From: Streptomyces sp. NBC_01298
GTDB taxonomy: Bacteria; Actinomycetota; Actinomycetes; Streptomycetales; Streptomycetaceae
DNA: 64,000 nt
Assembly (NCBI RefSeq): GCF_035978755.1
Contig: NZ_CP108414.1
Location: 2,232,001-2,296,000 of the forward strand
Direction of reading: 5' to 3'
In this document: positions 38,451-52,598 of the stretch, one piece after another
How positions within the stretch are numbered: position 1 is the stretch's first letter
Layout of the letters: each line of letters opens with the position of its first letter
Made by a program: the position numbers and the translations under genes
Notes under the pieces: model-generated
Database searches by the model: none
What the model was told of the DNA's origin: nothing
What the model saw: only the letters and a program-made list of their open reading frames with translations

Positions 38451-38828
38451 TCAGGACGTGATCGGCGGCGCCGTCCCGCCGCCGGTCCCGCCGCCCGCCG
38501 CGCCGAGCGAGGGGCCGACCGCGCGCAGGGCGCCCGGTGTGCGCCCCTCGCCCCAGCCGATCTCCCGCCGGTAGCTGCCGAGCAGGCCGCGGCCGGCGAG
38601 GGCGGCCTCGTCCCGTACGGCCGGGTCCTCGGGGACCGGCCGGGTCAGCGGGGACACGAACAGCGCGTCCACCGGGCAGTTGGCCTCGCACAGGAAGCAG
38701 GTCTGGCAGTCCTCCTGCCGGGCGAGCAGCGGGATCCCCTCCGGCCCCCGCTCGAAGACGTCGGTCGGGCAGACCTCCACGCACTTGTCGCAGGCAATGC
38801 ACCGCTCGGCCGAAACCAGCTCGATCAT
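38451..38828 (-). CDS. Two-[4Fe-4S] ferredoxin, AprB-like
   Basis: 125 residues. Two cluster motifs of CxxCxxCxxxCP form are seen: CIACDKCVEVCP (about residue 10) and CQTCFLCEANCP (about 43). A C-terminal extension of ~70 residues ends in a Gly-rich tail, a layout like the beta subunit of APS reductase. The ATG overlaps the stop of the flavoprotein gene, so the two are a complex. It is the last gene of the eight-gene sulfur operon. Electron transfer to or from the flavoprotein is inferred. Confidence 0.85.
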   Translation of the reverse strand: MIELVSAERCIACDKCVEVCPTDVFERGPEGIPLLARQEDCQTCFLCEANCPVDALFVSPLTRPVPEDPAVRDEAALAGRGLLGSYRREIGWGEGRTPGALRAVGPSLGAAGGGTGGGTAPPITS

Positions 38829-40405
38829 GCGACCAGCTCCGCCGGCCGCGTCCACACCCGGTCGAGCCCGCCCGTGACGATCCGGTGGTGCTGCGCCGGG
38901 TCCTGCCCCGGGTGGTCGAGCCGGCGGGCCATCCCGCGGCTCTCCGTACGGGCCAGCGCCGAGGCGTACATCCAGCGGGCGTGCGCCGTCATGGCCGCCG
39001 CCTGCCGGACCTTGACCAGCCCGGCGCCCTCCCCGCGGAGGGAGCGCACCTGCGCCCAAAGCTCGTCGAGGGCGCCGAGCGCGCCGGTGAGGACGGGGCC
39101 GCGCCGCAGGTAGTTCTTGTCGTACGGCAGCACCTCCTCCTGTACGAGCCGTACGAGTTCCCGTGCCTCCCCGGGCCCGGCCGCTGACCCGGCGCCCCCG
39201 GTCGGCCGCAGGCCCGCCCCGCCGGCCCCGGTGACCGGCCGGAAGGCGGCCCGGACCGAGCCCAGCGCGCGGGCGTACCGGGCCGCGCCGGCCCCCGCCC
39301 AACTGCCCGAGGACATCGCCCAGGCGGCGTTGTGGCTGCCGCCTCCGGTGAAGCCCCCGCAGATCTCCTCGCGGGTGGCCGCGTCCCCGGCGGCGTACAA
39401 CCCGGGGACCGAGGTGGCGCAGTCGTCCCCCGTGATCCGGATGCCGCCGGTGCCGCGGACGGTGCCCTCGGCCAGCAGCGTGACGGAGAAGCGGTCGGTG
39501 AAGGGGTCGATGCCGAGCCGGTCGAAGGTGAGGAAGAAGTTCGGCTGCGCGAGCCGCATCGCGGCCTGCGCGGTGGTGTCGGCCCGGTCGAGGCGGGCGA
39601 AGACCCGGGCTCCGGTGAGGAGTTCACCGGCGATGGCGGAGCGCCCGCCTTGGCTGGCGGCGCCCTCCAGGACCTCGCCGTCCTCCCGGTAGAAGGTGGC
39701 GAAGGAGTAGAAGGCCGTCTTGGTGACGGAGGTGCCCTCGGGGGCGATCCCGTAGGAGTTGGAGAACTCCATGCCGGACAGTTCGGCCCCGGTCTCGGCG
39801 GCGAACAGCGCGCCGTCCCCGGTGTTGGTGTTGGTGCCGAGCGCGCCGCTGAGGAAGGCGCAGCCCCCGGTGGCCAGGACGACGGCGCCGGCCCGGACCC
39901 GGTAGGGCTCGCCGGCCTGGCGCCGGTATCCGGCGGCGCCCGCGACCGCTCCGTCCGCGTCGGTCAGCAGCTCGGCGACCGGGCTGTGGTCGAGGATCCG
40001 GACCCCGGCGCGGCGGATCCGGATGCGCATCCGCCGCATGTACTCCGGCCCCTGGAGGCCGTTTCGGAGCGGACTGCCGTCGGGGCCGGTCGGGAAGGGG
40101 TAGCGCCCCTCGTCGGCCAGCTCGTTCATCCGGGCGTACGTCTCGTCGAGCACCCGGGACATCCACCGCCGGTCGGCGAGGTACCCGCCGAGCCCCTCGC
40201 GGCTCGCCATCGCGGCCTCACGGGCCGCCGGCTCCGGCGGGACGTACCAGACGCCGGTGCCGCCGGCGGCCGTCGCCCCGCTGGTGCCGCAGTAGCCCTT
40301 GTCGGCGAGGACGACGGAGGCCCCGGCCCCGGCCGCCTTGAGGGCGGCCCAGGTGGCGGCGGGGCCCCCGCCGACCACGAGCACGTCGGCGACGTGCTCG
40401 CTCAC
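38825..40405 (-). CDS. FAD-dependent oxidoreductase, AprA/fumarate reductase-like flavoprotein
   Basis: 526 residues. The FAD-binding motif VLVVGGGPAATWAALKAAG is at the N-terminus, with GTSGATAAGG after it. VVLATGGCAFLSGALGTNTNTGDG and GLYAAGDAATREEICGGFTGGGSHNAAWAM are diagnostic of the succinate dehydrogenase/fumarate reductase/APS reductase flavoprotein superfamily. It is paired with a double-cluster ferredoxin as in AprBA, and lies in an operon for organosulfur scavenging. It may reduce a sulfur oxyanion or an oxidised organosulfur product. The GTG start at 40405 overlaps the monooxygenase stop. A Gly/Ala insert near residue 410 is low complexity. Confidence 0.82.
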   Translation of the reverse strand: MSEHVADVLVVGGGPAATWAALKAAGAGASVVLADKGYCGTSGATAAGGTGVWYVPPEPAAREAAMASREGLGGYLADRRWMSRVLDETYARMNELADEGRYPFPTGPDGSPLRNGLQGPEYMRRMRIRIRRAGVRILDHSPVAELLTDADGAVAGAAGYRRQAGEPYRVRAGAVVLATGGCAFLSGALGTNTNTGDGALFAAETGAELSGMEFSNSYGIAPEGTSVTKTAFYSFATFYREDGEVLEGAASQGGRSAIAGELLTGARVFARLDRADTTAQAAMRLAQPNFFLTFDRLGIDPFTDRFSVTLLAEGTVRGTGGIRITGDDCATSVPGLYAAGDAATREEICGGFTGGGSHNAAWAMSSGSWAGAGAARYARALGSVRAAFRPVTGAGGAGLRPTGGAGSAAGPGEARELVRLVQEEVLPYDKNYLRRGPVLTGALGALDELWAQVRSLRGEGAGLVKVRQAAAMTAHARWMYASALARTESRGMARRLDHPGQDPAQHHRIVTGGLDRVWTRPAELVA

Positions 40406-41775
40406 GCCCCGGCTCCGTGGCCGGCCGCCACTGCCGGCGCCGCTGCCGACGCTGCCGTCGTGTAGCGGTTGGCGGGGCGGGCCAGGCCGTAGTTCTCGCG
40501 CAGGGTCCGGCCCGTGTACTCGGTGCGGAAGAGCCCGCGGCGCTGCAGGATCGGCACGACCTGGTCGACGAAGTCGGTGAGCCCGGTGGGGAGTACGGGA
40601 GCCATGATGTTGAAGCCGTCGGCGGCCCCCTGGGTGAACCACTCCTCCAGCTGGTCGGCGATCTGCTCGGGCGTCCCCGCGAAGACGCGGTGGCCGCGGC
40701 CCGCGCCCAGGCGGGCGATCAGCTCGCGCAGGGTGAGGCCCTCGCGGCGGGCGAGCTCGGCGACGAGCGTGAAGCGGCTCTTGTTGCCGTTGACGTCCCG
40801 CTCCTCGGGCAGGTCGGGCAGCCCGCCGTCGAGCGGCAGCCCGGTGAGGTCCACGTTCAGCATGTTGGAGAGCTGCGCGAGGCCGTACTCCGGGATCTGG
40901 AGCTCGGTGAGCTCCTGCTCCAGGGCCCTGGCCTCGGCCTCGGTGGAACCGATGACGGGGGCGATGCCGGGCAGCACGAGCAGCTGGTCCTCGGAGCGGC
41001 CGTACTTGGCGAGGCGCGACTTGAGGTCCTTGTAGAAGGTCTGCCCGTCGGCGAGGGTCTGCTGCGCGGTGAAGACGGCCTCGGCGTACTGGGCGGCGAA
41101 CTCCTTGCCGTCCTCGGAGGACCCGGCCTGCACGAGCAGCGGGTGGCCCTGCGGGGAGCGGGGCACGTTGAGCGGTCCGGCGACGCCGAAGTACTCGCCC
41201 TTGTGCGCGGCGGGGTGGAGCTTGTCGGTGTCGGCGTAGACGCCGCCCTCCTTGTCGAGGACGATCGCGTCGTCCTCCCAGCTGTCCCAGAGCTTGGTGG
41301 CCACGTTGAGGAACTCGCGGGCCCGCTCGTAGCGGAGGTTGTGCTCGAGGTGCTCGTCGCGGTTGAAGTTGCGGGCCTCGTCGGCGCTGCCGGAGGTGAC
41401 GATGTTCCAGCCGGCCCGGCCGCCGCTGATGTGGTCGAGGGAGGCGAACTTCCGGGCCAGGTTGTAGGGCTCGTTGAAGGTGGTGGAGACGGTGGCGATG
41501 AGCCCGATGTGCTCGGTGACGGCGGCGATCGCGGAGAGCAGGGTGAGCGGCTCGAAGCCGCCGACGGCGTTGTATCGGGCCTTGCCCCAGAGGGCGACCC
41601 CGTCGGCGAAGAAGATCGAGTCGAGCCGCCCGCGCTCGGCGGTACGGGCCAGTTCCTGGAAGTAGCGCAGATCGGTGATCCGCTCGGGGCTGCTGGAGGG
41701 GTGGCGCCAGGCGGCGTCGTGGTGGCCCGCGTTCATGAGGAAGGCGTTGAGGTGGAGGGTCCGGGGTGCGGTCAT
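40402..41775 (-). CDS. NtaA/SnaA/DszA family FMN-dependent monooxygenase
   Basis: A 457-residue luciferase-like monooxygenase. Typical motifs: LNAFLMNAGHHDAAWRHP, STTFNEPYNLARKFASLDHISGGRAGWN in blocks, GPLNVPRSPQGHPLLVQAGSSEDGKEFAAQ in blocks, and a C-terminal GTPEQIADQLEEWFTQGAADGFNI. This subfamily uses FMNH2 to cleave C-S or C-N bonds (sulfones, nitrilotriacetate, dimethyl sulfide). The operon supplies an FMN reductase and a sulfonate-type transporter, so C-S cleavage for sulfur supply is the best inference. The 139-bp gap before it contains a duplicated 15-bp sequence (41867-41881 and 41892-41906). Confidence 0.88.
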   Translation of the reverse strand: MTAPRTLHLNAFLMNAGHHDAAWRHPSSSPERITDLRYFQELARTAERGRLDSIFFADGVALWGKARYNAVGGFEPLTLLSAIAAVTEHIGLIATVSTTFNEPYNLARKFASLDHISGGRAGWNIVTSGSADEARNFNRDEHLEHNLRYERAREFLNVATKLWDSWEDDAIVLDKEGGVYADTDKLHPAAHKGEYFGVAGPLNVPRSPQGHPLLVQAGSSEDGKEFAAQYAEAVFTAQQTLADGQTFYKDLKSRLAKYGRSEDQLLVLPGIAPVIGSTEAEARALEQELTELQIPEYGLAQLSNMLNVDLTGLPLDGGLPDLPEERDVNGNKSRFTLVAELARREGLTLRELIARLGAGRGHRVFAGTPEQIADQLEEWFTQGAADGFNIMAPVLPTGLTDFVDQVVPILQRRGLFRTEYTGRTLRENYGLARPANRYTTAASAAAPAVAAGHGAGA

Positions 41776-41914: not shown

Positions 41915-42874
41915 TCAGGACGGGACGCGCCATGTGCTCAGGCGGCGTTCGATCGTGACGAGGATCTGGTTGAAGGCGAGGCCGATCGCGGAGATCGTGA
42001 CGATGCCCGCGTACATCTGCGGGATCGCGAAGTTGAACTGCGAGGCGTTGATCAGGTAGCCGAGGCCCGCCTTCGCGCCGATCATCTCGGCCGCGACCAG
42101 GACCAGGATGGAGACGGCCCCGGCCAGCCGGATGCCCGTGAAGATGACCGGCACCGACGCCGGCAAGATCACCTTCTGGAAGAGCTTCGGCGTGGACAGG
42201 TCCATCGAGCGCGCCAGTTTCACCAGGGTCGGATCGGCGTTGCCCACGGCGCTGATGGTGTTCAGCAGGATCGGCCAGACGCAGGCGTAGACGACGATCG
42301 AGACCTTCGAGGTCTCCCCGATGCCCAGCAGCAGGACGAACACCGGCAGCAGCGCGAGCGCCGCCGTGTTGCGGAACACCTCCAGCAGCGGCCCCAGCAG
42401 CGCCGCCACCGGCCGGTACCAGCCGATCAGCAGCCCGAGCGGGACCGCGACGGCCACCGCGATGCCGAATCCGCCGAAGGAGCGGGCCAGGCTCGCCTTG
42501 CTGTGCTCCGCGAGCTGCCCGTTGCCCAGCAGCTCCCACCAGGCCTTGGCGACCTCGCTCACCGGAGGCAGGAACGTCGCGTCGACCAGTCCCAGCCGCG
42601 GCGCCGCCTCCCACAGTCCCAGCAGCGCCAGGATCGCCGCCGACCGCAGGGCCACCGCCCGCAGCACCCGCAGGCCGCGCAGGGCCACGGCCGCGGCCGG
42701 CGACCGTACGGGGGCCCGCGCGGGGGTCCGTACCGCCGCGGGCGCGAGGTCCCGTACGGCTGTCGCCGCCGCTTCCGCCTCGACGCCCGTCTCGACGTCC
42801 GTCTTGACGTCCGTCTTGACGTCCGTCTTGACGCCCGGTTCCGCCTCTACCGCTGCTTCCACCGTCGTGCTCAT
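41915..42874 (-). CDS. ssuC: ABC transporter permease, sulfonate/taurine type
   Basis: 319 residues. About 80 residues of disordered N-terminus (including three VKTD repeats encoded by a 12-bp tandem repeat near 42794-42831) precede six transmembrane segments. The EAA-like loop of BPD permeases is seen as NTISAVGNADPTLVKLARSMDLS. The sequence matches SsuC/TauC-type permeases that import alkanesulfonates. The ATG overlaps the stop of the ATPase gene. Confidence 0.86.
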   Translation of the reverse strand: MSTTVEAAVEAEPGVKTDVKTDVKTDVETGVEAEAAATAVRDLAPAAVRTPARAPVRSPAAAVALRGLRVLRAVALRSAAILALLGLWEAAPRLGLVDATFLPPVSEVAKAWWELLGNGQLAEHSKASLARSFGGFGIAVAVAVPLGLLIGWYRPVAALLGPLLEVFRNTAALALLPVFVLLLGIGETSKVSIVVYACVWPILLNTISAVGNADPTLVKLARSMDLSTPKLFQKVILPASVPVIFTGIRLAGAVSILVLVAAEMIGAKAGLGYLINASQFNFAIPQMYAGIVTISAIGLAFNQILVTIERRLSTWRVPS

Positions 42875-43701
42875 ACGGCGACCTCCTCCTTCTCCAGTTG
42901 CTGGGCGCGGGCCACCTCGTCGTGGAGCAGGGTCCAGATCTCGTGGCGGTAGCGGGCGAACTCCGGGCTGGAGCGCAGGTCTTCACCCGTGGCCCCGGTG
43001 GCCCGGTCGCCGAACGACACCGGGACGACCTGCTTGACCCGGCCGGGGCGGGAGGTGATGACCGCCACCCGCTGCCCGAGGTACACGGCCTCCTCGATGC
43101 CGTGCGTGATGAACACGATCGTCTTGCCGGTGCTCTGCCAGATCCGCCGCAGTTCGTCCTGGAGGGACTCGCGGGTCTGCGCGTCGAGCGCGGCGAACGG
43201 CTCGTCCATCAGGAGCACGTCCGGGTCGTACGCGAGCGAGCGCGCGATGGCGACCCGCTGGCGCATGCCGCCGGACAGTTCGTGCGGATGCCGGTCCTCG
43301 AAGCCGGTGAGGCCGACCAGGTCCAGGAACTCGCGTGCCTTCGCCGTCCGTTGGCGGCGCGGGACGCCGGTGGCCTCCAGGCCGAACTCGATGTTGCCCA
43401 GCGCGGTGCGCCACGGCAGCAGCGCGTACTGCTGGAAGACGATGCCCCGGTCGAGCCCCGGCCCGGTGACCGGCTTGCCGTCGAGCAGGATCCGGCCGGA
43501 GGTGGGCGGGGTCAGGCCGCCGAGCAGATCCAGGAGGGTGGACTTGCCGCAGCCGCTGGGGCCCACGACGACCACGAACTCCCCCGACCCGATCTCCAGG
43601 TCGATGCCGTCGAGGGCGGTGAACTCCTCCTTGGCCCCGTTCTTGTTCTTGCCCTTCGTCGGGAAGGTCTTCGTCACGGACTCGAACACGATCTTCGCCA
43701 T
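42871..43701 (-). CDS. ssuB: ABC transporter ATP-binding protein, sulfonate/taurine type
   Basis: 276 residues. Walker A is GPSGCGKSTLL, the Q-loop region is VFQQYALLPWRTALGNI, the signature is LSGGMRQRVAIARSLA, Walker B is VLLMDEPFAALD, and the switch His is in IVFITHGIEEAV. It energises the adjacent permease. It lies 6 bp after the binding-protein gene and overlaps the permease gene. Confidence 0.92.
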   Translation of the reverse strand: MAKIVFESVTKTFPTKGKNKNGAKEEFTALDGIDLEIGSGEFVVVVGPSGCGKSTLLDLLGGLTPPTSGRILLDGKPVTGPGLDRGIVFQQYALLPWRTALGNIEFGLEATGVPRRQRTAKAREFLDLVGLTGFEDRHPHELSGGMRQRVAIARSLAYDPDVLLMDEPFAALDAQTRESLQDELRRIWQSTGKTIVFITHGIEEAVYLGQRVAVITSRPGRVKQVVPVSFGDRATGATGEDLRSSPEFARYRHEIWTLLHDEVARAQQLEKEEVAV

Positions 43702-43707
43702 GCCGGA

Positions 43708-44742
43708 TCAGCCCTTCCCGTATCCGTTGAACTCGTTGGTGTAGAGGTCGGCCGCCTTGAGCTGGTCCTTCTTGATCTCGCCGCGGTCGCCGAGCCAGTC
43801 GAGCCAGAGCTGGAACGACTTGTCCTCGACCCGGCCGCCCGTCTCGGCGACTCCGTAGGAGCGCCAGAACTGCAGGGTCGCCGTGTCCTCGTTGCGGCCG
43901 CGCTTCTTGACGATCTCCGTCATCCGCGCGATGACCTGCTCGCGCGGAGTGGTGCGGGACCACTCGATGGCCTTGGCCACGCCGGTCACGAAGGTCCGTA
44001 CGGTGTCCGGGTTCTGCTTGATGAAGCGCTCGGTCATGATGTACGTCCCGGCGCTGAACGGACCGAGCAGTTCCACATCGGTGAACAGCGGGCGGATGCC
44101 GCCGGCCGCCAGGGCCTTGTCGCGCAGGACTCCGGTGAGGACACCGACCTCGATCTGCTTCGCCCGCAGCGCCTGTTCGGTGTTGACGGGCGGAACCACG
44201 AGGGGCTCGACCTTGGCCGCGTCCGCCTTGGAGAGGCCGCCCCGGCTCAGGTAGATGTCGAGCAGGGCCTGGTAGTGGGCGCCCAGGGTGTTCATGCCGA
44301 CCTTCTTGCCGATCAGGTCGCGGGCGGAGCGGAGCGGGCTGTCCTCCAGGACGTAGTAGCCGCCGTAGGAGTACTGGTCGGAGCCGTAGGAGGAGATGAC
44401 GGCCTTGATCGGGGCCTTGGTGGCGGCGAGCTTGATGACGGCGCCGTTGAAGGCGCTGCCGAAGTGCGTCTGGCCGGTGGCCGCGGACTGGATGTCCTGG
44501 GGGCCGCTGATGGTGTTGCCGACCCAGTCCAGGGTCACGTTCCCGAGGTAGCCGAGGTCGGCGGCGAGCTCGGGGAGCGTGACCCCGCCGACGTTGCCCT
44601 GGTACTTCAGTGAGGTGATCTGCTCGCCGCCGGAGCCGCCGGTGGCGGTCGCCGTCCCGCAGCTCACCGCGGCCGCCGAGATGCCGAGCAGGGTGAGGAA
44701 CTGGCGTCGGGAGGTACGGGTGGTGGTGAAAGCTGCGGACAT
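43708..44742 (-). CDS. ssuA: ABC transporter substrate-binding lipoprotein, sulfonate type
   Basis: 344 residues. The N-terminus TSRRQFLTLLGISAAAVSCG combines a twin-arginine motif with a lipobox (AVSC), so the mature protein is probably a Tat-exported lipoprotein. The body is an NMT1/SsuA-like periplasmic-binding fold (YLGNVTLDWVGNTISGPQDIQSA, GKKVGMNTLGAHYQALLDIYL in blocks). It captures the organosulfur substrate for the SsuBC transporter. Confidence 0.87.
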   Translation of the reverse strand: MSAAFTTTRTSRRQFLTLLGISAAAVSCGTATATGGSGGEQITSLKYQGNVGGVTLPELAADLGYLGNVTLDWVGNTISGPQDIQSAATGQTHFGSAFNGAVIKLAATKAPIKAVISSYGSDQYSYGGYYVLEDSPLRSARDLIGKKVGMNTLGAHYQALLDIYLSRGGLSKADAAKVEPLVVPPVNTEQALRAKQIEVGVLTGVLRDKALAAGGIRPLFTDVELLGPFSAGTYIMTERFIKQNPDTVRTFVTGVAKAIEWSRTTPREQVIARMTEIVKKRGRNEDTATLQFWRSYGVAETGGRVEDKSFQLWLDWLGDRGEIKKDQLKAADLYTNEFNGYGKG

Positions 44743-44807: not shown

Positions 44808-45365
44808 TCAGCGCGCGGTGGCGAGCGCGGCGGCCTGGGCGGCGCGCAGGGCGTCGGCGAACTCGTCGACGGCCTGGTACAGGTCCAGCTCCGCCTCGGG
44901 CCGCAGCCGGTCCGGGCCGGCCCCGCGCTCGACGGAGGAGTCCAGGACGAAGCGGCCGGCGGTGACGTGCCGGGCGCCGAGCGCGGCGAGGACCGGGCGC
45001 AGGGCGTAGTCGATGGTCAGGACATGGGCGAGGCTGCCGCCGGTGGCCAGCGGGAAGACCGTCTTCCCGGCCAGCCCGTCCTGCGGGAGCAGGTCGAGGA
45101 AGGCCTTGAGGAGTCCGGTGTACGAGGCCTTGTAGACGGGCGTCGCGATGACGATCCCGTCGGCTTCGGCGACGGCTTCGAGGGCCCGGCGGATCTCCGG
45201 CTCGCCGCGGCGTGCGGCGAGCAGATCGGCGGCGGGGAGTTCCCGGACGGCGAGCTGCGCGGTCTCGAACCCGGCGTGGTTCAGGCGGCGCAGGATGTGG
45301 TCGGCGACCACGTCGGTACGGGAGTGGACGGACGGACTGCCGGTGAGGGCGAGCAGCTTGGGCAC
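44808..45365 (-). CDS. ssuE: NADPH-dependent FMN reductase (SsuE/MsuE family)
   Basis: A 185-residue flavodoxin-fold reductase: LLALTGSPSVHSRTDVVADHIL at the N-terminus, VIATPVYKASYTGLLKAFLDLLPQ in the centre, and VFPLATGGSLAHVLTIDYALRPVLAALGA in blocks. It supplies FMNH2 to the downstream monooxygenase. The flanking gaps are G-rich with short repeats (GGGCGGGGCC type) but have no gene. Confidence 0.87.
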   Translation of the reverse strand: MPKLLALTGSPSVHSRTDVVADHILRRLNHAGFETAQLAVRELPAADLLAARRGEPEIRRALEAVAEADGIVIATPVYKASYTGLLKAFLDLLPQDGLAGKTVFPLATGGSLAHVLTIDYALRPVLAALGARHVTAGRFVLDSSVERGAGPDRLRPEAELDLYQAVDEFADALRAAQAAALATAR

Positions 45366-45472: not shown

Positions 45473-46411
45473 TCAGGCTTCGGAGGCGGAGGCTCCGGAC
45501 GCGATGCCGAAGGCCGGGTCCGGCACGGTCTCCGGGCTGATCAGCCGGGACGGGACCCCGTCGGGGCCGACCGGGACGTCTCCGTCGACCGTCACGCGGC
45601 GCAGGGTGCGCTCGTGGTCGTCGGAGTCGTCGACGCCGTAGTGCTGGGTGGCGCGGTTGTCCCAGATCGCGACCTCACCGGCCTGCCACTGCCAGCGGAC
45701 GGTGTTCTCGGGGAGCTCGATGTGGGCCTGGAAGAGGTCCTGGAGGAGGCGCGAGTCACGGCCGGTGAGCCCGTTGATCCGCTGGACGAAGTTGCCGAGC
45801 AGCAGGGTGCGTTCGCCTGTCTCGGGGTGGACCCGGACCACCGGGTGCTCGGTGAGGAACTTGGTCGAGGTGAACACCTCGCGGTACTGGGCCAGGGCCT
45901 CGGGCAGGGCGTCGGGCTTCAGGGCCGCGTAGTCGTACTCGTTGGTGTGCACGGCGCGGAGGCTGTCGGCGAGGACGCGCAGCGGCTCGGGCAGGCCGGC
46001 GTAGGCGGTGGCCGTGTTGGCCCACAGGGTGTTGCCCCCGTACGGCGGGATGGTGACGGCGCGCAGGATGGAGAAGGCGGGGTAGGCGGGGACGAAGGTG
46101 ACGTCCGTGTGCCACTGGTTGGCGCGGGCTCCGTGGTGGGAGTCGATGCCGAGCGCGTAACGCCCGTCGGCGGAGGGCACGGTGGGGTGGGCGACGGGCG
46201 CGCCGAGCAGCTCGGCGAAGGCCTCGTGCCCGTCCTCGTCGAGGTGGTCCTGACCGCGGAAGAAGACGACCTTGTGGGCGAGCAGCGCGGCCCGGATCCC
46301 GGCGACGGCCTCGGCTTCGAGCTCGCCGCCGAGGCGGACCCCACCGATCTCGGCGCCTATGCGGCCGCCGATCTTGGTGACGGTGAGGTCGGTGCGGGTG
46401 GCAGTGGACAT
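45473..46411 (-). CDS. tauD: TauD/TfdA family alpha-ketoglutarate-dependent dioxygenase
   Basis: 312 residues. The Fe(II) facial triad appears as WHTDVTF and the distal His in [10 protein letters not shown]; the 2-oxoglutarate Arg is probably in HERTLRRVT. The family releases sulfite from taurine and other sulfonates or hydrolyses sulfate esters. It is the first gene of the operon. AAGGAG lies 6 nt before ATG 46411. A longer upstream in-frame extension has no RBS and poor composition, so I reject it. Confidence 0.88.
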
Positions 46412-46759
46412 GAGAGGCTCCTTGTTTATTTCCGCAGGGGAAGAAATGAGGCAAGCGAGGACGCCGGGATCCGGCCGGGGCAAAGGGACGGAGGTGGCGT
46501 GTTCGACGGGGTGACGAGGTTCGGCGGGGCGACGAGGTTCGGCGGGCGGCGAGTTCCAACGGGCAACGGGCGGGGCCGGCGGCGGGTCAGCGACGTTCAG
46601 CCGGCAGAGTGCGCGGGTCGACGGGCAGCCGCCGTCGGCCGGCGACGGGGCGAGCGGGCAGGTAGGCGGTACTCGGATCCGATCGGCCTGAACCCGCGGC
46701 CTTGGCCACCAGCACTCCGCCGGCGGCTCGGCGCGAGTCCGTACGACCACCCGGACGAC

Positions 46760-46814
46760 GGGGCACGAGGGCCCGGCCACTCGGCAAGTCAGTGCCCCCG
46801 GAGCCCCGTGCCCC
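46760..46814 (-). promoter_or_regulatory. Candidate attenuator hairpin in the sulfur-operon leader
   Basis: A 17-bp stem (46760-46776 with 46798-46814, three mismatches, the outer 8 bp perfect) and a loop of about 21 nt. It lies between the Cys-codon-rich leader ORF and tauD. Immediately downstream of the leader stop, a run of ACTCAGGG/AAGGACTC-like repeats (46815-46868) could give alternative pairings. Confidence 0.4.
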
Positions 46815-46868
46815 AAGGACTCAGGGAGTCAAGGACCCAAGGGCTCAGGGACTCAAGGGCGCAGACGC

Positions 46869-46973
46869 TCAGGAACAGCGCGGGGCCGTACAGCGACGGC
46901 CCTGACACTCGCCCGGCGCGGTACAGAGGCCGGGGGTGTGGAGCCGCGGGGCGAGGAACTCGGTCGCGGTCAT
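46869..46973 (-). CDS. 34-codon cysteine-rich leader peptide of the sulfur operon
   Basis: The ORF encodes MTATEFLAPRLHTPGL followed by CTAPGECQGRRCTAPRCS. All four Cys codons are TGT, a codon strongly disfavoured in this genome relative to TGC. A promoter (TTGACC, 17-nt spacer, CAGTCT) ends 7 nt before the ATG, so the message is leaderless and needs no Shine-Dalgarno. The RLH element and clustered Cys resemble cysteine leader peptides upstream of actinobacterial sulfur genes. Ribosome stalling at low Cys-tRNA would be the sensing step. tauD begins 457 bp downstream. The rest of 46412-47239 holds no other credible gene. Translation is predicted, not shown. Confidence 0.55.
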   Translation of the reverse strand: MTATEFLAPRLHTPGLCTAPGECQGRRCTAPRCS

Positions 46974-46980
46974 GTCCCGG

Positions 46981-47009
46981 AGACTGCCAGCGCCCCCAGC
47001 CCCGGTCAA
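46981..47009 (-). promoter_or_regulatory. Promoter of the leader ORF and probably the sulfur operon
   Basis: On the minus strand, TTGACC at 47004-47009 and CAGTCT at 46981-46986 are separated by exactly 17 nt. The predicted start coincides with the A of the leader ATG at 46973. Confidence 0.5.
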
Positions 47010-47239
47010 CCCCGACGAGCACCCCCCACCCGCACTCCTGGCCCCCGGCACATACACACTGCGACCTGCGCTTTCACCATTTCCCCCCACTCCCGGAACG
47101 GCCGAAACCCATGGCCTGATTTCACGCCCCCGCAACGCACCCGCCACGCAGCCCCTGCCGCCATCAGCTCGCCCGCCCGCGCCGAGCGCGGCGACACGGC
47201 ATGATCGGGACCACACCCCACCCTCCGAGGAGCCCGCCC

Positions 47240-48478
47240 GTGTCCTCCACCCCCGGTGACAGCCGGGCCGTCGCCAATGCCGCCGCCGTGCTCCGTGCCG
47301 TCCTGAGCCACGGCCCCCTCGCGCGGAGCGACATCCCGCAGCTCTGCGGTCTCAGCCCGGCCGCCGTGTCCCGGCAGACCACGGCCCTGCTCCGCGCCGG
47401 CCTGCTGTGCGAACGCCCCGGACCGGAGCAGCCGCCCGCGGCAAGCGGCCCCGGGTCCGGAACCGGTGCCGGACCCGGCACCGCCACCCCCGGCACCACC
47501 CCCGGCCCCGGCCGCCCCCGCATTCCCCTCGACCTGCACACCGGACCCCTCGGCGGCCCCCTCGCCGCCGGACTGCACATCGGTGTGCCCGCCTCCACCT
47601 TCAGCCTCGTCGACCTCCGCGGCCGCGTCCTGGCCCGCCGGGCCTTCCCGCACGCGGGCCTCTCCTGCGACCGCCTGCCCGCGGCCATCGCCGCCGAGCT
47701 CGGCCGGTTCCTCCGGGACTCCCATCCCGCCGGCCGCCCCCTGCTCGGCGTCGGCGCGGCGCTCGGCGGCTGGGTCCGCCCCGCCGACGGGACCGTCGTG
47801 CGCCACGACGCCCTCGGCTGGCGCGAGCTCCCGCTCGCCGCCGAGCTCTCCGACCGCCTCGGGCTGCCCGTCTCCGTGGACAACCACGCCCGCGCCATCG
47901 CCCACGCCGAGATCCTCTTCGGCCGCCCCGAAGCCCGCTCCAGCCTCCTCCACCTCTTCATCGGCAACGTCGTCGACGCCGCCTTCGGCATCGAGGGCAC
48001 CGTGCACCAGGGCCCGGGCGCAGCCGCCGGGGACGTCGCGCACCTCCCCGTGCCCGGTTCGCGGACCCCCTGCGCGTGCGGCCGTACGGGTTGTCTCCAG
48101 GCGAGCGCCTCCGACGGAGTCATCGGCGCCGAGGCCGTGCGCCGCGGCATCGTCCCGGAGCCCTCCATCAACCTCCTGGTCGACGCCGCCGCCACCGGCG
48201 ACCCCCGCGCCGACCGGCTGCTGCGCGAACGCGCCCGTACCGTCGGCAGGGCCGCGGCCCTGCTCCTCGACGTGTTCAACCCGGCCGTCATGGTGGTCTC
48301 GGAGCTGGCCGGCATCCTCCACGAGGGCTACCTCGACGAGATCCGGGACGCGGCCGGCGCCCAGGACCGCTACGGGCGCCGGATCGTCGCCCCGCACGCG
48401 GGTCCGGCCGTACTCCCGGTAGCCTCCGCGACCGTGCTCCTCGCCCCGCTCTTTCGTGATCCCTCCCGACTCACATGA
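47240..48478 (+). CDS. ROK family transcriptional regulator/sugar kinase
   Basis: 412 residues. An N-terminal winged helix-turn-helix (AAAVLRAVLSHGPLARSDI, LSPAAVSRQTTALLRAGLL) is joined by a Gly/Pro/Thr-rich linker to a ROK domain. The ROK zinc motif is seen as PCACGRTGCLQA (about residue 277), with RPLLGVGAALGGWV before it. ROK repressors respond to sugars; the target is unknown. The start is GTG 47240 with GAGGAG 7 nt upstream. It is divergent from the sulfur operon but far from it, so a link is not assumed. Confidence 0.87.
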   Translation: MSSTPGDSRAVANAAAVLRAVLSHGPLARSDIPQLCGLSPAAVSRQTTALLRAGLLCERPGPEQPPAASGPGSGTGAGPGTATPGTTPGPGRPRIPLDLHTGPLGGPLAAGLHIGVPASTFSLVDLRGRVLARRAFPHAGLSCDRLPAAIAAELGRFLRDSHPAGRPLLGVGAALGGWVRPADGTVVRHDALGWRELPLAAELSDRLGLPVSVDNHARAIAHAEILFGRPEARSSLLHLFIGNVVDAAFGIEGTVHQGPGAAAGDVAHLPVPGSRTPCACGRTGCLQASASDGVIGAEAVRRGIVPEPSINLLVDAAATGDPRADRLLRERARTVGRAAALLLDVFNPAVMVVSELAGILHEGYLDEIRDAAGAQDRYGRRIVAPHAGPAVLPVASATVLLAPLFRDPSRLT

Positions 48479-48540: not shown

Positions 48541-50393
48541 ATGACGGTCCTGCCTGATGACGGGCTCTCCTTGGCCGCCGAATTCCCTGACGCGACGCAT
48601 GAGCAGTGGCAGCGCCTGGTAGAGGGCGTGCTGCGCAAGTCGGGCAAGGAAGTTTCCGGCGAGGCAGCGGAAGACGCGTTGTCCACGAAGCTCGAGGACG
48701 GGCTCACCACCCGCCCGCTGTACACCGCGCCCGAAGCCGCGCCCGACACCGGTTTTCCGGGGTTCGCGCCCTTCGTACGGGGCGGGCGCGCCGAAGGCGG
48801 CGCCGCCTCGGGCTGGGACGTGCGCCAGCGGATCGCGGGCAGTGACCCCGTACGGGTGAACGACGCGGCCCTGGCCGACCTGGAGAACGGGACCACCTCG
48901 CTGTGGCTGGCCGTCGGCGACGCCGGCCTCCCCGCCGAGGGCCTGGGCCGGGCGCTGGAGGGGGTCTACCTCGACCTCGCGCCCGTCTCCCTGGACCCCG
49001 GGGCCCAGTTCGCCGAGGCCGCCCGCGCCCTGCTCGCGCTGTACGCCGAGCGCGGGGTGGCCCCCGAGGCGGCCCACGCGTCCCTGGGCGCCGACCCGCT
49101 GGGCCACGAGGCCCGGACGGGCGAGGCGCTCGACCTGGCCGAGGCCGCCGCGCTCGCCGCGCGGACGGCCGCCTGGCCCCACGTGCGCGCCCTGACCGTC
49201 GACGCCCTGCCCTACCACGAGGCGGGCGGCAGCGCCGCCGAGGAGCTGGGGCTGTCCCTGGCCACCGGGGTCGCCTACCTGCGCGCCCTCACCGAAGCCG
49301 GTCTGAGCACCGAAGCGGCCCTCGGCGAGCTGGAGTTCCGCTACGCCGCCACCGCCGACCAGTTCCTCACCATCGCCAAGCTGCGCGCCGCCCGCCGGCT
49401 GTGGGCCCGGATCGCCGAGGCCTGCGGGGCCCCGGCGGCCGGAGCCCAGCGCCAGCACGCCGTGACCTCGCCGGTGATGATGACCCGCCGCGACCCGTGG
49501 GTGAACATGCTGCGCACCACCGTCGCCTGCATGGCGGCGGGCGTGGGCGGCGCGGACTCGGTCACCGTGCTCCCCTTCGACCAAGAGCTCGGCCTGCCCG
49601 ACGCGTTCGCGCGCCGCATCTCCCGCAACACCTCCACGATCCTGCTGGAGGAATCCCACCTGGCCCGCGTGATCGACCCGGCCGGCGGCTCGTACTACGT
49701 CGAGCGGCTCACGGACGAACTCGCCCACGCCGCCTGGGAGTTCTTCCAGACCATCGAGAAGGCGGGCGGCCAGGCCGCCGCCCTGCGCTCCGGCCTGGTG
49801 GCCGACCGCCTCGCCGCCACCTGGGCGACGCGTTCGAAGAAGCTGGCCACACGCCGCGAACCCGTCACCGGAGTCAGCGAGTTCCCGCACCTGTCCGAGA
49901 AGCCGGTCGTACGGGAGCCCGCGCCGGCCCCGCTCACCGGCGGACTGCCGCGCGTGCGGCGGGGCGAAGCGTACGAGGCCCTGCGCGCGCGCAGCGACGT
50001 ACACCTGGAGGCGACCGGGGCCCGGCCCACCGTCTTCCTGGCGGCCCTGGGCCCGGCGGCCGCGCACACCGCCCGCGCCACCTTCGCCTCGAACCTGTTC
50101 CAGGCGGGCGGCATCACCCCGGTCCACGACCCGGTGTCGGTGACCCCGGAGACGGCGGCCGCGGCCTACGCGGCGAGCGGCGCCGACGGCATGGCCGTGC
50201 TGTGCTCCAGCGACGCGCTGTACGAGGAGCAGGCCGAGGCGGTGGCCGCGGCCCTGCGCTCGGCGGGCGCGACGACCGTGTTCCTCGCGGGCAGGCCCGG
50301 CACCGCCGAGACGGCCGTGGACGAGTACGTCTTCGCCGGCTGCGACGCGATCGCCGTGCTGTCCTCCGTACTCGACCGGATGGGAGTCGCGTC

Positions 50394-50397
<4 letters not shown>
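48541..50397 (+). CDS. mutA: Methylmalonyl-CoA mutase small subunit
   Basis: A 618-residue MutA. The TIM-barrel mutase domain (about 50-430) includes [24 protein letters not shown] in blocks and [26 protein letters not shown] in blocks. The C-terminal B12-binding-like domain lacks the DxHxxG motif, as expected for the non-catalytic subunit. There is no RBS. TACCAT at 48528-48533 lies 7 nt before ATG 48541, hinting at a leaderless transcript. It works as a heterodimer with MutB in propionate/succinyl-CoA metabolism. Confidence 0.93.

Positions 50398-52598
<2,201 letters not shown>

Follow-up and report, generated by a model that had tools for sequence, protein, structure and literature searches.

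Mycobacterial polycysteine ORFs, attributed to Canestrari et al. 2020, are reportedly leaderless and Cys-rich and lie ahead of sulfur genes. The leader described here, which lies in the window (the whole 64,000-nt stretch of DNA that was analysed), is like the mycobacterial polycysteine leaders (NF042936, leader_Ms4527A) in being a Cys-rich ORF, here predicted to be leaderless, before sulfur genes; its Cys codons, however, are spaced (17, 23, 28 and 33) rather than contiguous and a long spacer follows, so that it has the downstream sulfur genes of a polycysteine attenuator and not the run of Cys codons. Cys-codon leaders without a conserved terminator, with Rho proposed, weakly, for mycobacteria, are described for cys/cbs operons in passages of Seliverstov et al. 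(2005; PMC1262725) that deal with Mycobacterium, P. acnes and B. longum and contain no Streptomyces cysteine leader; the window leader shares with them the Cys leader, the absence of a conserved terminator and the Rho idea, but differs in host genus. The uORFC-8-2 motif before cysS of Rhodobacterales is an upstream ORF with regulatory Cys codons in which, according to the sections describing it, UGC dominates and an intrinsic terminator forms part of the motif (PMC8632094), unlike the window leader. The leu-operon leader, as discussed in part of PMC1183508, resembles the present case in using rare codons as regulatory codons, its bias being put down to isoacceptors, unlike tRNA-Cys here. RNA-seq of S. 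lividans revealed leaderless leader peptides, one of which precedes metNIQ, has three Cys and is classed by the authors, in the sections concerned, as a methionine leader (PMC8079986); this 'metL' leader (Table 4 of that paper) carries three Cys plus Met, may sense cysteine, and matched no NCBIfam model. The class to which we relate the window leader was known before this work and is already an NCBI family, NF042934 ('putative leader peptide', cis_reg_atten), whose members are likewise short Actinobacterial leaders before sulfur genes and have a sensor TGT; the window peptide differs in lacking the HxDLxRxxSAxC core and in having four Cys codons. That TGT is the rule at the sensor emerged from this analysis and is no curated NF042934 criterion, and in the open-licence literature we found no paper that assigns the sensor role in Actinobacterial leaders to UGU.

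The leader ORF and its promoter-like boxes are as follows, relatives with an ORF of the same type being called window-type.

46869..46973, minus strand: leader ORF MTATEFLAPRLHTPGLCTAPGECQGRRCTAPRCS, 34 codons from ATG 46973 to TGA 46869
47004..47009, minus strand: -35 box TTGACC, assigned by sequence and by the conserved TTGAC spacing in relatives
46981..46986, minus strand: -10-like box CAGTCT, after a 17-nt gap from TTGACC and separated by 7 nt from the leader ATG
46923..46925, minus strand: Cys codon 17 (TGT); in 30 aligned leaders TGT 24, TGC 4, Arg 2
46905..46907, minus strand: Cys codon 23 (TGT); TGT in 30/30 aligned window-type leaders and in register with the NF042934 sensor Cys
46890..46892, minus strand: Cys codon 28 (TGT), within the leader-hairpin loop; TGT 31, TGC 1 (rows with a GRC motif among 34, L097 included)
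46875..46877, minus strand: Cys codon 33 (TGT), present in only some relatives

Coordinates and codons agree with the first-pass annotation, which had reported a 34-codon ORF with four TGT Cys codons in its last 18 codons and a distance of 457 nt to tauD, whose ATG is at 46411. TGT at 4/4 Cys codons is improbable given the window background of 10 TGT in 123 Cys codons (p ~4e-5). The 17-nt-spaced boxes claimed upstream were also found and their position is conserved: TTGAC lies 35-37 nt before the ATG in 33/33 window-type ORFs (exactly 36 nt in 31), and the -10 place holds CAGGCT, CACGCT or CAGTCT in 31/33. A generic sigma-70 scan called no promoter at the window leader, in keeping with CAGTCT being a poor -10 and the promoter being weak by consensus. 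From the arrangement of TTGACC, 17-nt gap, CAGTCT and 7 nt, the transcript would begin on the leader ATG and is thus predicted to be leaderless. In 400 kb of the same genome, searched on both strands, only 12 ATGs lie 35-37 nt behind TTGAC; two of these open ORFs of 8-50 codons, one of them with two Cys codons, and no short ATG ORF with three Cys codons was found at this spacing.

The eight-gene operon of the earlier annotation is present as eight same-strand ORFs from tauD to a ferredoxin, 8/8 with Pfam matches, and has a divergent neighbour.

45473..46411, minus strand: tauD-like dioxygenase, first structural gene (PF02668)
44808..45365, minus strand: SsuE-type FMN reductase (TIGR03567, above cut-off)
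43708..44742, minus strand: SsuA/NMT1-like substrate-binding protein (PF09084; SsuA_fam below cut-off)
42871..43701, minus strand: ABC ATPase (closest NCBIfam model of taurine type, below cut-off)
41915..42874, minus strand: ABC permease, SaoP/TauC/SsuC-like (matches below cut-offs)
40402..41775, minus strand: NtaA/DmoA-family FMN monooxygenase (TIGR03860, above cut-off)
38825..40558, minus strand: FAD-binding subunit, start approximate (PF00890)
38451..38828, minus strand: 4Fe-4S ferredoxin-like protein (PF00037, PF13237)
47201..48478, plus strand: divergent ROK-family regulator (PF00480)

The predicted content of this operon is compatible with sulfonate scavenging. The claim of a leaderless-type Cys leader in front of it is backed by comparison with 80 related tauD loci, 79 from Streptomyces and one (L049) labelled only Actinobacteria, in which up to 2 kb upstream was searched for short ORFs that contain one or more Cys codons and whose ATG follows a TTGAC-like box at a distance of 31-41 nt. 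Including the window, the 81 loci comprise 33 with window-type, 10 with canonical, 13 with minimal, 9 with related longer and 4 with other leaders, L097 being window-type by the first pattern and then reassigned to canonical, and the four others (L084, L090, L099, L109) being retained by eye from 11 such ORFs, the remaining seven of which were dropped as chance-like. By this box-ATG-ORF search, a second look included, 12/81 loci have no Cys leader. A window-type ORF is therefore found at 32 of the 80 orthologous loci, and 36 more have other Cys leaders at such spacing. The minimal leader (MFATSSCPA..., 13-19 residues) stands in place of the long leader at tauD loci L062-L067, L070-L073, L078, L081 and L091 and has TGT at codon 7 in 13/13 rows. 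On the tauD tree the 33 window-type rows need 2 changes, and the canonical leaders are scattered (8 changes for 10 rows); since the tree is rooted at its midpoint, it does not give the order of descent.

Alignment of orthologs, proposed earlier as a check on ORF, Cys count and TGT bias, bears out the first and the last, with 33/33 window-type ORFs open and TGT at codon 23 in 30/30 aligned leaders (L045, L060 and L108 being excluded from the codon-position table); the Cys count holds in part, as codon 23 is Cys in all 30 and codon 33 in only some. Frame-disrupting changes in relatives, named in advance as evidence against the ORF, are limited to a one-base gap in L043, positioned after the third aligned Cys; all other gaps within window-type ORFs come in threes. 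Over codons 2-23 dN/dS is 1.3 (pS 0.129, pN 0.165; 31 of the 33 window-type rows, two being excluded), so that no purifying selection on the leader peptide was found by this test, and synonymous sites have hardly changed along the ORF. By this ratio the ORF is conserved at the nucleotide level and not like a classical protein.

Kinship with the known Actinobacterial class is indicated by NF042934 members at the same tauD locus. The leader of L082 (MTATTVLVPRLHIDLGRLASAAC...) scores 28.3 bits against the family cut-off of 27 bits, which is also passed by the leaders of L092, L101, L103, L104 and L105; the canonical-looking leaders of L093, L097 and L107 score below it, and that of L110 gave no NF042934 match despite its canonical look. 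The window peptide matched no NCBIfam family at E up to 1 and does not reach the 27 bits of NF042934. It aligns by eye without gaps to the L082 leader over the region that the two share, however, with codon 23 on the sensor Cys, the last position of the NF042934 profile, which makes it a divergent variant rather than a member by the curated test. The putative window leader is thus a divergent variant of a known leader class, akin to the mycobacterial polycysteine leaders. In the window's own genome seven NF042934 matches exceed the cut-off, and for six of these (L114 left out) the next gene was typed by Pfam as a sulfatase (L111), a PLP enzyme of the cysteine-synthase superfamily (L112), a cysteine dioxygenase (L113), a sulfite/nitrite reductase (L115), a luciferase-like monooxygenase (L116) or a rhodanese (L117). 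NF042934 is found in 41/41 searched genomes of the genus and in 5/119 genomes of an even draw across the phylum; because that draw held few genomes of the class, a class-level search was added, giving 137/246 genomes and 55/95 genera. NF042936 (the Ms4527A leader) has matches in 90/246 class genomes at E 1e-4, and 15 exceed its cut-off. Among canonical leaders 61/128 carry a TTGAC-like box (any of seven pentamers) at leaderless spacing, compared to 6 at a control offset, and leaderless starts therefore look common among canonical leaders, about half having the predicted box. In three genomic regions (G002:C151:70733, G004:C1:462100 and G023:C1:4714043) an NF042934 leader sits ~2 kb from tauD, on the other strand and oriented away from it.

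Among the best matches listed, and with leaders registered on the conserved Arg and duplicate sequences counted once, TGT is the sensor codon in 171/174 Actinomycetes leaders that have Cys there: 12/12 in the own genome (rows covering 13 of its 23 NF042934 matches, including six that score under the family cut-off), 113/116 in the same genus (the best 129 of the matches listed, by E-value save one; Streptomyces, judged by the nearest named tauD relatives) and 46/46 in other Actinomycetes (best-match loci). This count does not include L142, L289 and L319, which were unmatched, L119 and L325, which have no Cys at the sensor position, or L202, L231 and L241, which were registered on the wrong motif and have TGT in the first count. 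At the non-sensor Cys codons of the same leaders TGT accounts for 6/15 in the own genome, 18/118 in the genus and 58/132 in other Actinomycetes (31% overall), and the genomic background is 68/702 Cys codons (9.7%) in 234 predicted genes of this genome. The first count, which kept duplicates and used 128 oriented same-genus leaders (129 loci less L146, which was mis-oriented), gave 125 TGT and 3 TGC at the sensor codon, with TGC in 120/131 non-sensor Cys codons between match start and stop of the same leaders. In the YAGCxC subtype (24 distinct sequences) the Cys two codons earlier is TGC in 24/24 and the sensor TGT in 24/24. Outside the genus the contrast is weaker, as polycysteine runs mix TGT and TGC and the register position is TGT. 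These counts, like those for spacer composition below, span related sequences, and Fisher values overrate how independent they are; neighbouring Cys codons share that relatedness yet, in the genus, trend the opposite way. Nor is TGT a product of general AT drift, since 922/974 non-Cys codons of window-type leaders (L097 included) end in G or C. The codon-specific TGT sensor suggested for the window is hence supported by the contrast of 171/174 with 31%, and TGT at the putative sensor is not special to this operon. Across a widespread bacterial leader family the putative sensor is nearly always the less common of the two Cys codons: leaders from many genera keep a single synonymous codon at this position, while this genome's genes mostly use the other. 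The TGT rule also helps to spot diverged leaders missed by profile models, the window leader being a case.

Between the leader and tauD the following elements were considered.

46412..46868, minus strand: untranslated spacer, 457 nt, C-rich and G-poor, of non-conserved length; candidate Rho-loading/termination zone
46760..46814, no strand assigned: inverted repeat with 17-nt arms (46760-46776 and 46798-46814), 82% complementary
46883..46902, minus strand: in-ORF hairpin GGGCCGU-CGCUGU-ACGGCCC, consensus columns 75-94, little covariation

The window spacer has C 0.42 and G 0.31 (C 0.45 and G 0.21 in its final 150 nt). Over the first 100 nt past the leader stop C averages 0.46 and G 0.27, with C above G in 115/117 leaders; the median C-G is 0.20 after leaders versus 0.02 in 114 control upstream regions of the window genome (Mann-Whitney p 3e-25, computed on related leaders with 100-nt windows that partly extend into downstream genes). 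At the tauD locus C exceeds G in 65/65 spacers of 80 to 1542 nt, lengths that end at the TauD match start, up to 12 codons inside the protein; those of the window and L031 carry tandem or inverted repeats. No intrinsic terminator (G+C-rich hairpin plus U run) was found in 46000-47300, nothing was found across the window by Rfam at gathering thresholds, and the predicted fold of the window leader RNA is no more stable than those of shuffled sequences (z +1.3). Rho is encoded, and together with C-rich, G-poor RNA after the leader, as in Rho attenuators, the missing terminator and the ordinary RNA stability this favours Rho. Of the two switches offered by the first-pass annotation, Rho access is consequently the more likely one, and leader refolding finds no support in the terminator search and the folding score. 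Its '17-bp hairpin' survives only as 17-nt arms in the window: the repeat was rejected as a part of the switch, both arms occurring at 13/17 or better identity in 0/32 window-type relatives. A GGGCC-type stem of 5-7 pairs around codon 27/28, with a loop of 5-8 nt usually holding UGU, is present in 31/33 window-type leaders (exceptions L043 and L061). The RNAalifold consensus of 33 leaders has an energy of -21.3 kcal/mol, a covariation term of -0.1 and no predicted pair 3' of the ORF (70 nt examined). Given this covariation term, only the codon-28 hairpin was retained, as a minor part that might pause polymerase or ribosome.

We consider it probable that the window leader is a cysteine-responsive leader-peptide attenuator with UGU sensing and a Rho switch. 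The comparisons point this way through the ORF with its promoter spacing, the NF042934 kinship, the fixed UGU, the C-over-G spacer and the terminator not found; from these we infer the transcript start, the stalling, the role of Rho, the direction of the response and the reason for UGU. A ribosome would load on the leaderless 5' end of a transcript starting at the ATG, and the UGU Cys codons would test the supply of charged tRNA-Cys. When cysteine is plentiful the ribosome would clear the ORF, leaving bare the C-rich spacer on which Rho could load and terminate transcription before tauD. When cysteine is scarce it would linger on UGU, chiefly at codon 23 and perhaps aided by the hairpin just ahead, shielding or refolding the RNA near the stop codon so that polymerase could reach the sulfonate genes. 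The direction is assumed, as stalling could also uncover Rho sites instead of masking them. Translation attenuation, by which stalling in the leader would unpair the downstream ribosome-binding site without Rho, is an unlikely alternative; passages of a 2026 paper place cysteine genes of M. smegmatis/mycobacteria under such control, and a short imperfect inverted repeat precedes the tauD ribosome-binding site in the window and L086, but the distance from leader stop to TauD match start ranges between 80 and 1542 nt at the window-type loci, RNAalifold predicted no partner 3' of the ORF within the 70 nt examined, and the leader RNA is no more stable than its shuffles.

Under the Rho-dependent attenuator, UGU might be retained for its G-U wobble, by which tRNA-Cys(GCA) would read it more slowly, and hence more sensitively, than the other Cys codon. 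A pattern search of the own genome found two tRNA-Cys genes, both with anticodon GCA, and none with anticodon ACA, by patterns that may miss genes. The two (G000:C1:5722560, L352, and G000:C1:7261940, L353) are quite different, one lying alone in a 3-kb locus and the other in a tRNA cluster. In E. coli, leader codon bias is attributed, in the part of PMC1183508 concerned, to isoacceptors losing charge to different degrees; with both tRNA-Cys genes sharing one anticodon, isoacceptor charging offers no obvious answer for UGU. UGU is presumed here to be slower and more sensitive than UGC for tRNA-Cys(GCA) through its G-U wobble. Wobble reading of UGU may depend on the sulfur-containing ms2i6A37 of tRNA-Cys, and miaB is encoded. 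Whether Actinomycetes sulfur leaders sense specifically UGU, such that a swap to UGC would blunt or abolish regulation, we regard as evenly balanced. Were regulation to need UGU, the speed of wobble decoding or the modification of the tRNA would itself be a regulatory signal, and in the stronger form that involves ms2i6A37, if true, the leader would gauge sulfur status by how tRNA-Cys is modified in addition to how it is charged.

It is distinctly improbable that TGT is instead kept for an RNA or DNA reason (structure or a protein site) and not for decoding. The nearly frozen synonymous sites and the position of the last shared UGU of window-type leaders in a conserved hairpin loop would fit such a reason, as would the flanks of the sensor TGT in 114 canonical leaders, where the following base is C in 82/114 and the preceding base always C or G. 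In these leaders, however, the sensor TGT has nine different codons before it and nineteen after it, making a longer shared motif around it unlikely. A structural reason was tried and found no support, as C for T at the sensor shifts the predicted ensemble energy less than it does at 224 control codons (mean -0.32 vs -0.78 kcal/mol, p 0.006).

Control of the operon by the ROK regulator or another protein, with the leader incidental, is suggested by the divergent ROK-family gene adjoining the operon, but is very unlikely given that leaders with the same sensor rule sit before several unrelated sulfur-related genes of this genome. That the ORF is a chance one inside a conserved promoter region is scarcely credible, for although dN/dS is not below 1, all 33 frames are open, the only frame-breaking gap (L043) follows the third aligned Cys, and the TGT bias and the NF042934 members at the same locus speak against it. 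The repeat before the tauD ribosome-binding site (imperfect, ATTTC..GGAAAT, window 46420-46450, spotted by eye) also occurs in L045, L083 and L086, and is a possible operator or RNA hairpin. Beyond the ROK gene, adjacent plus-strand ORFs at 48541-52598 of the window resemble, judged from their translation, two methylmalonyl-CoA mutase subunits.
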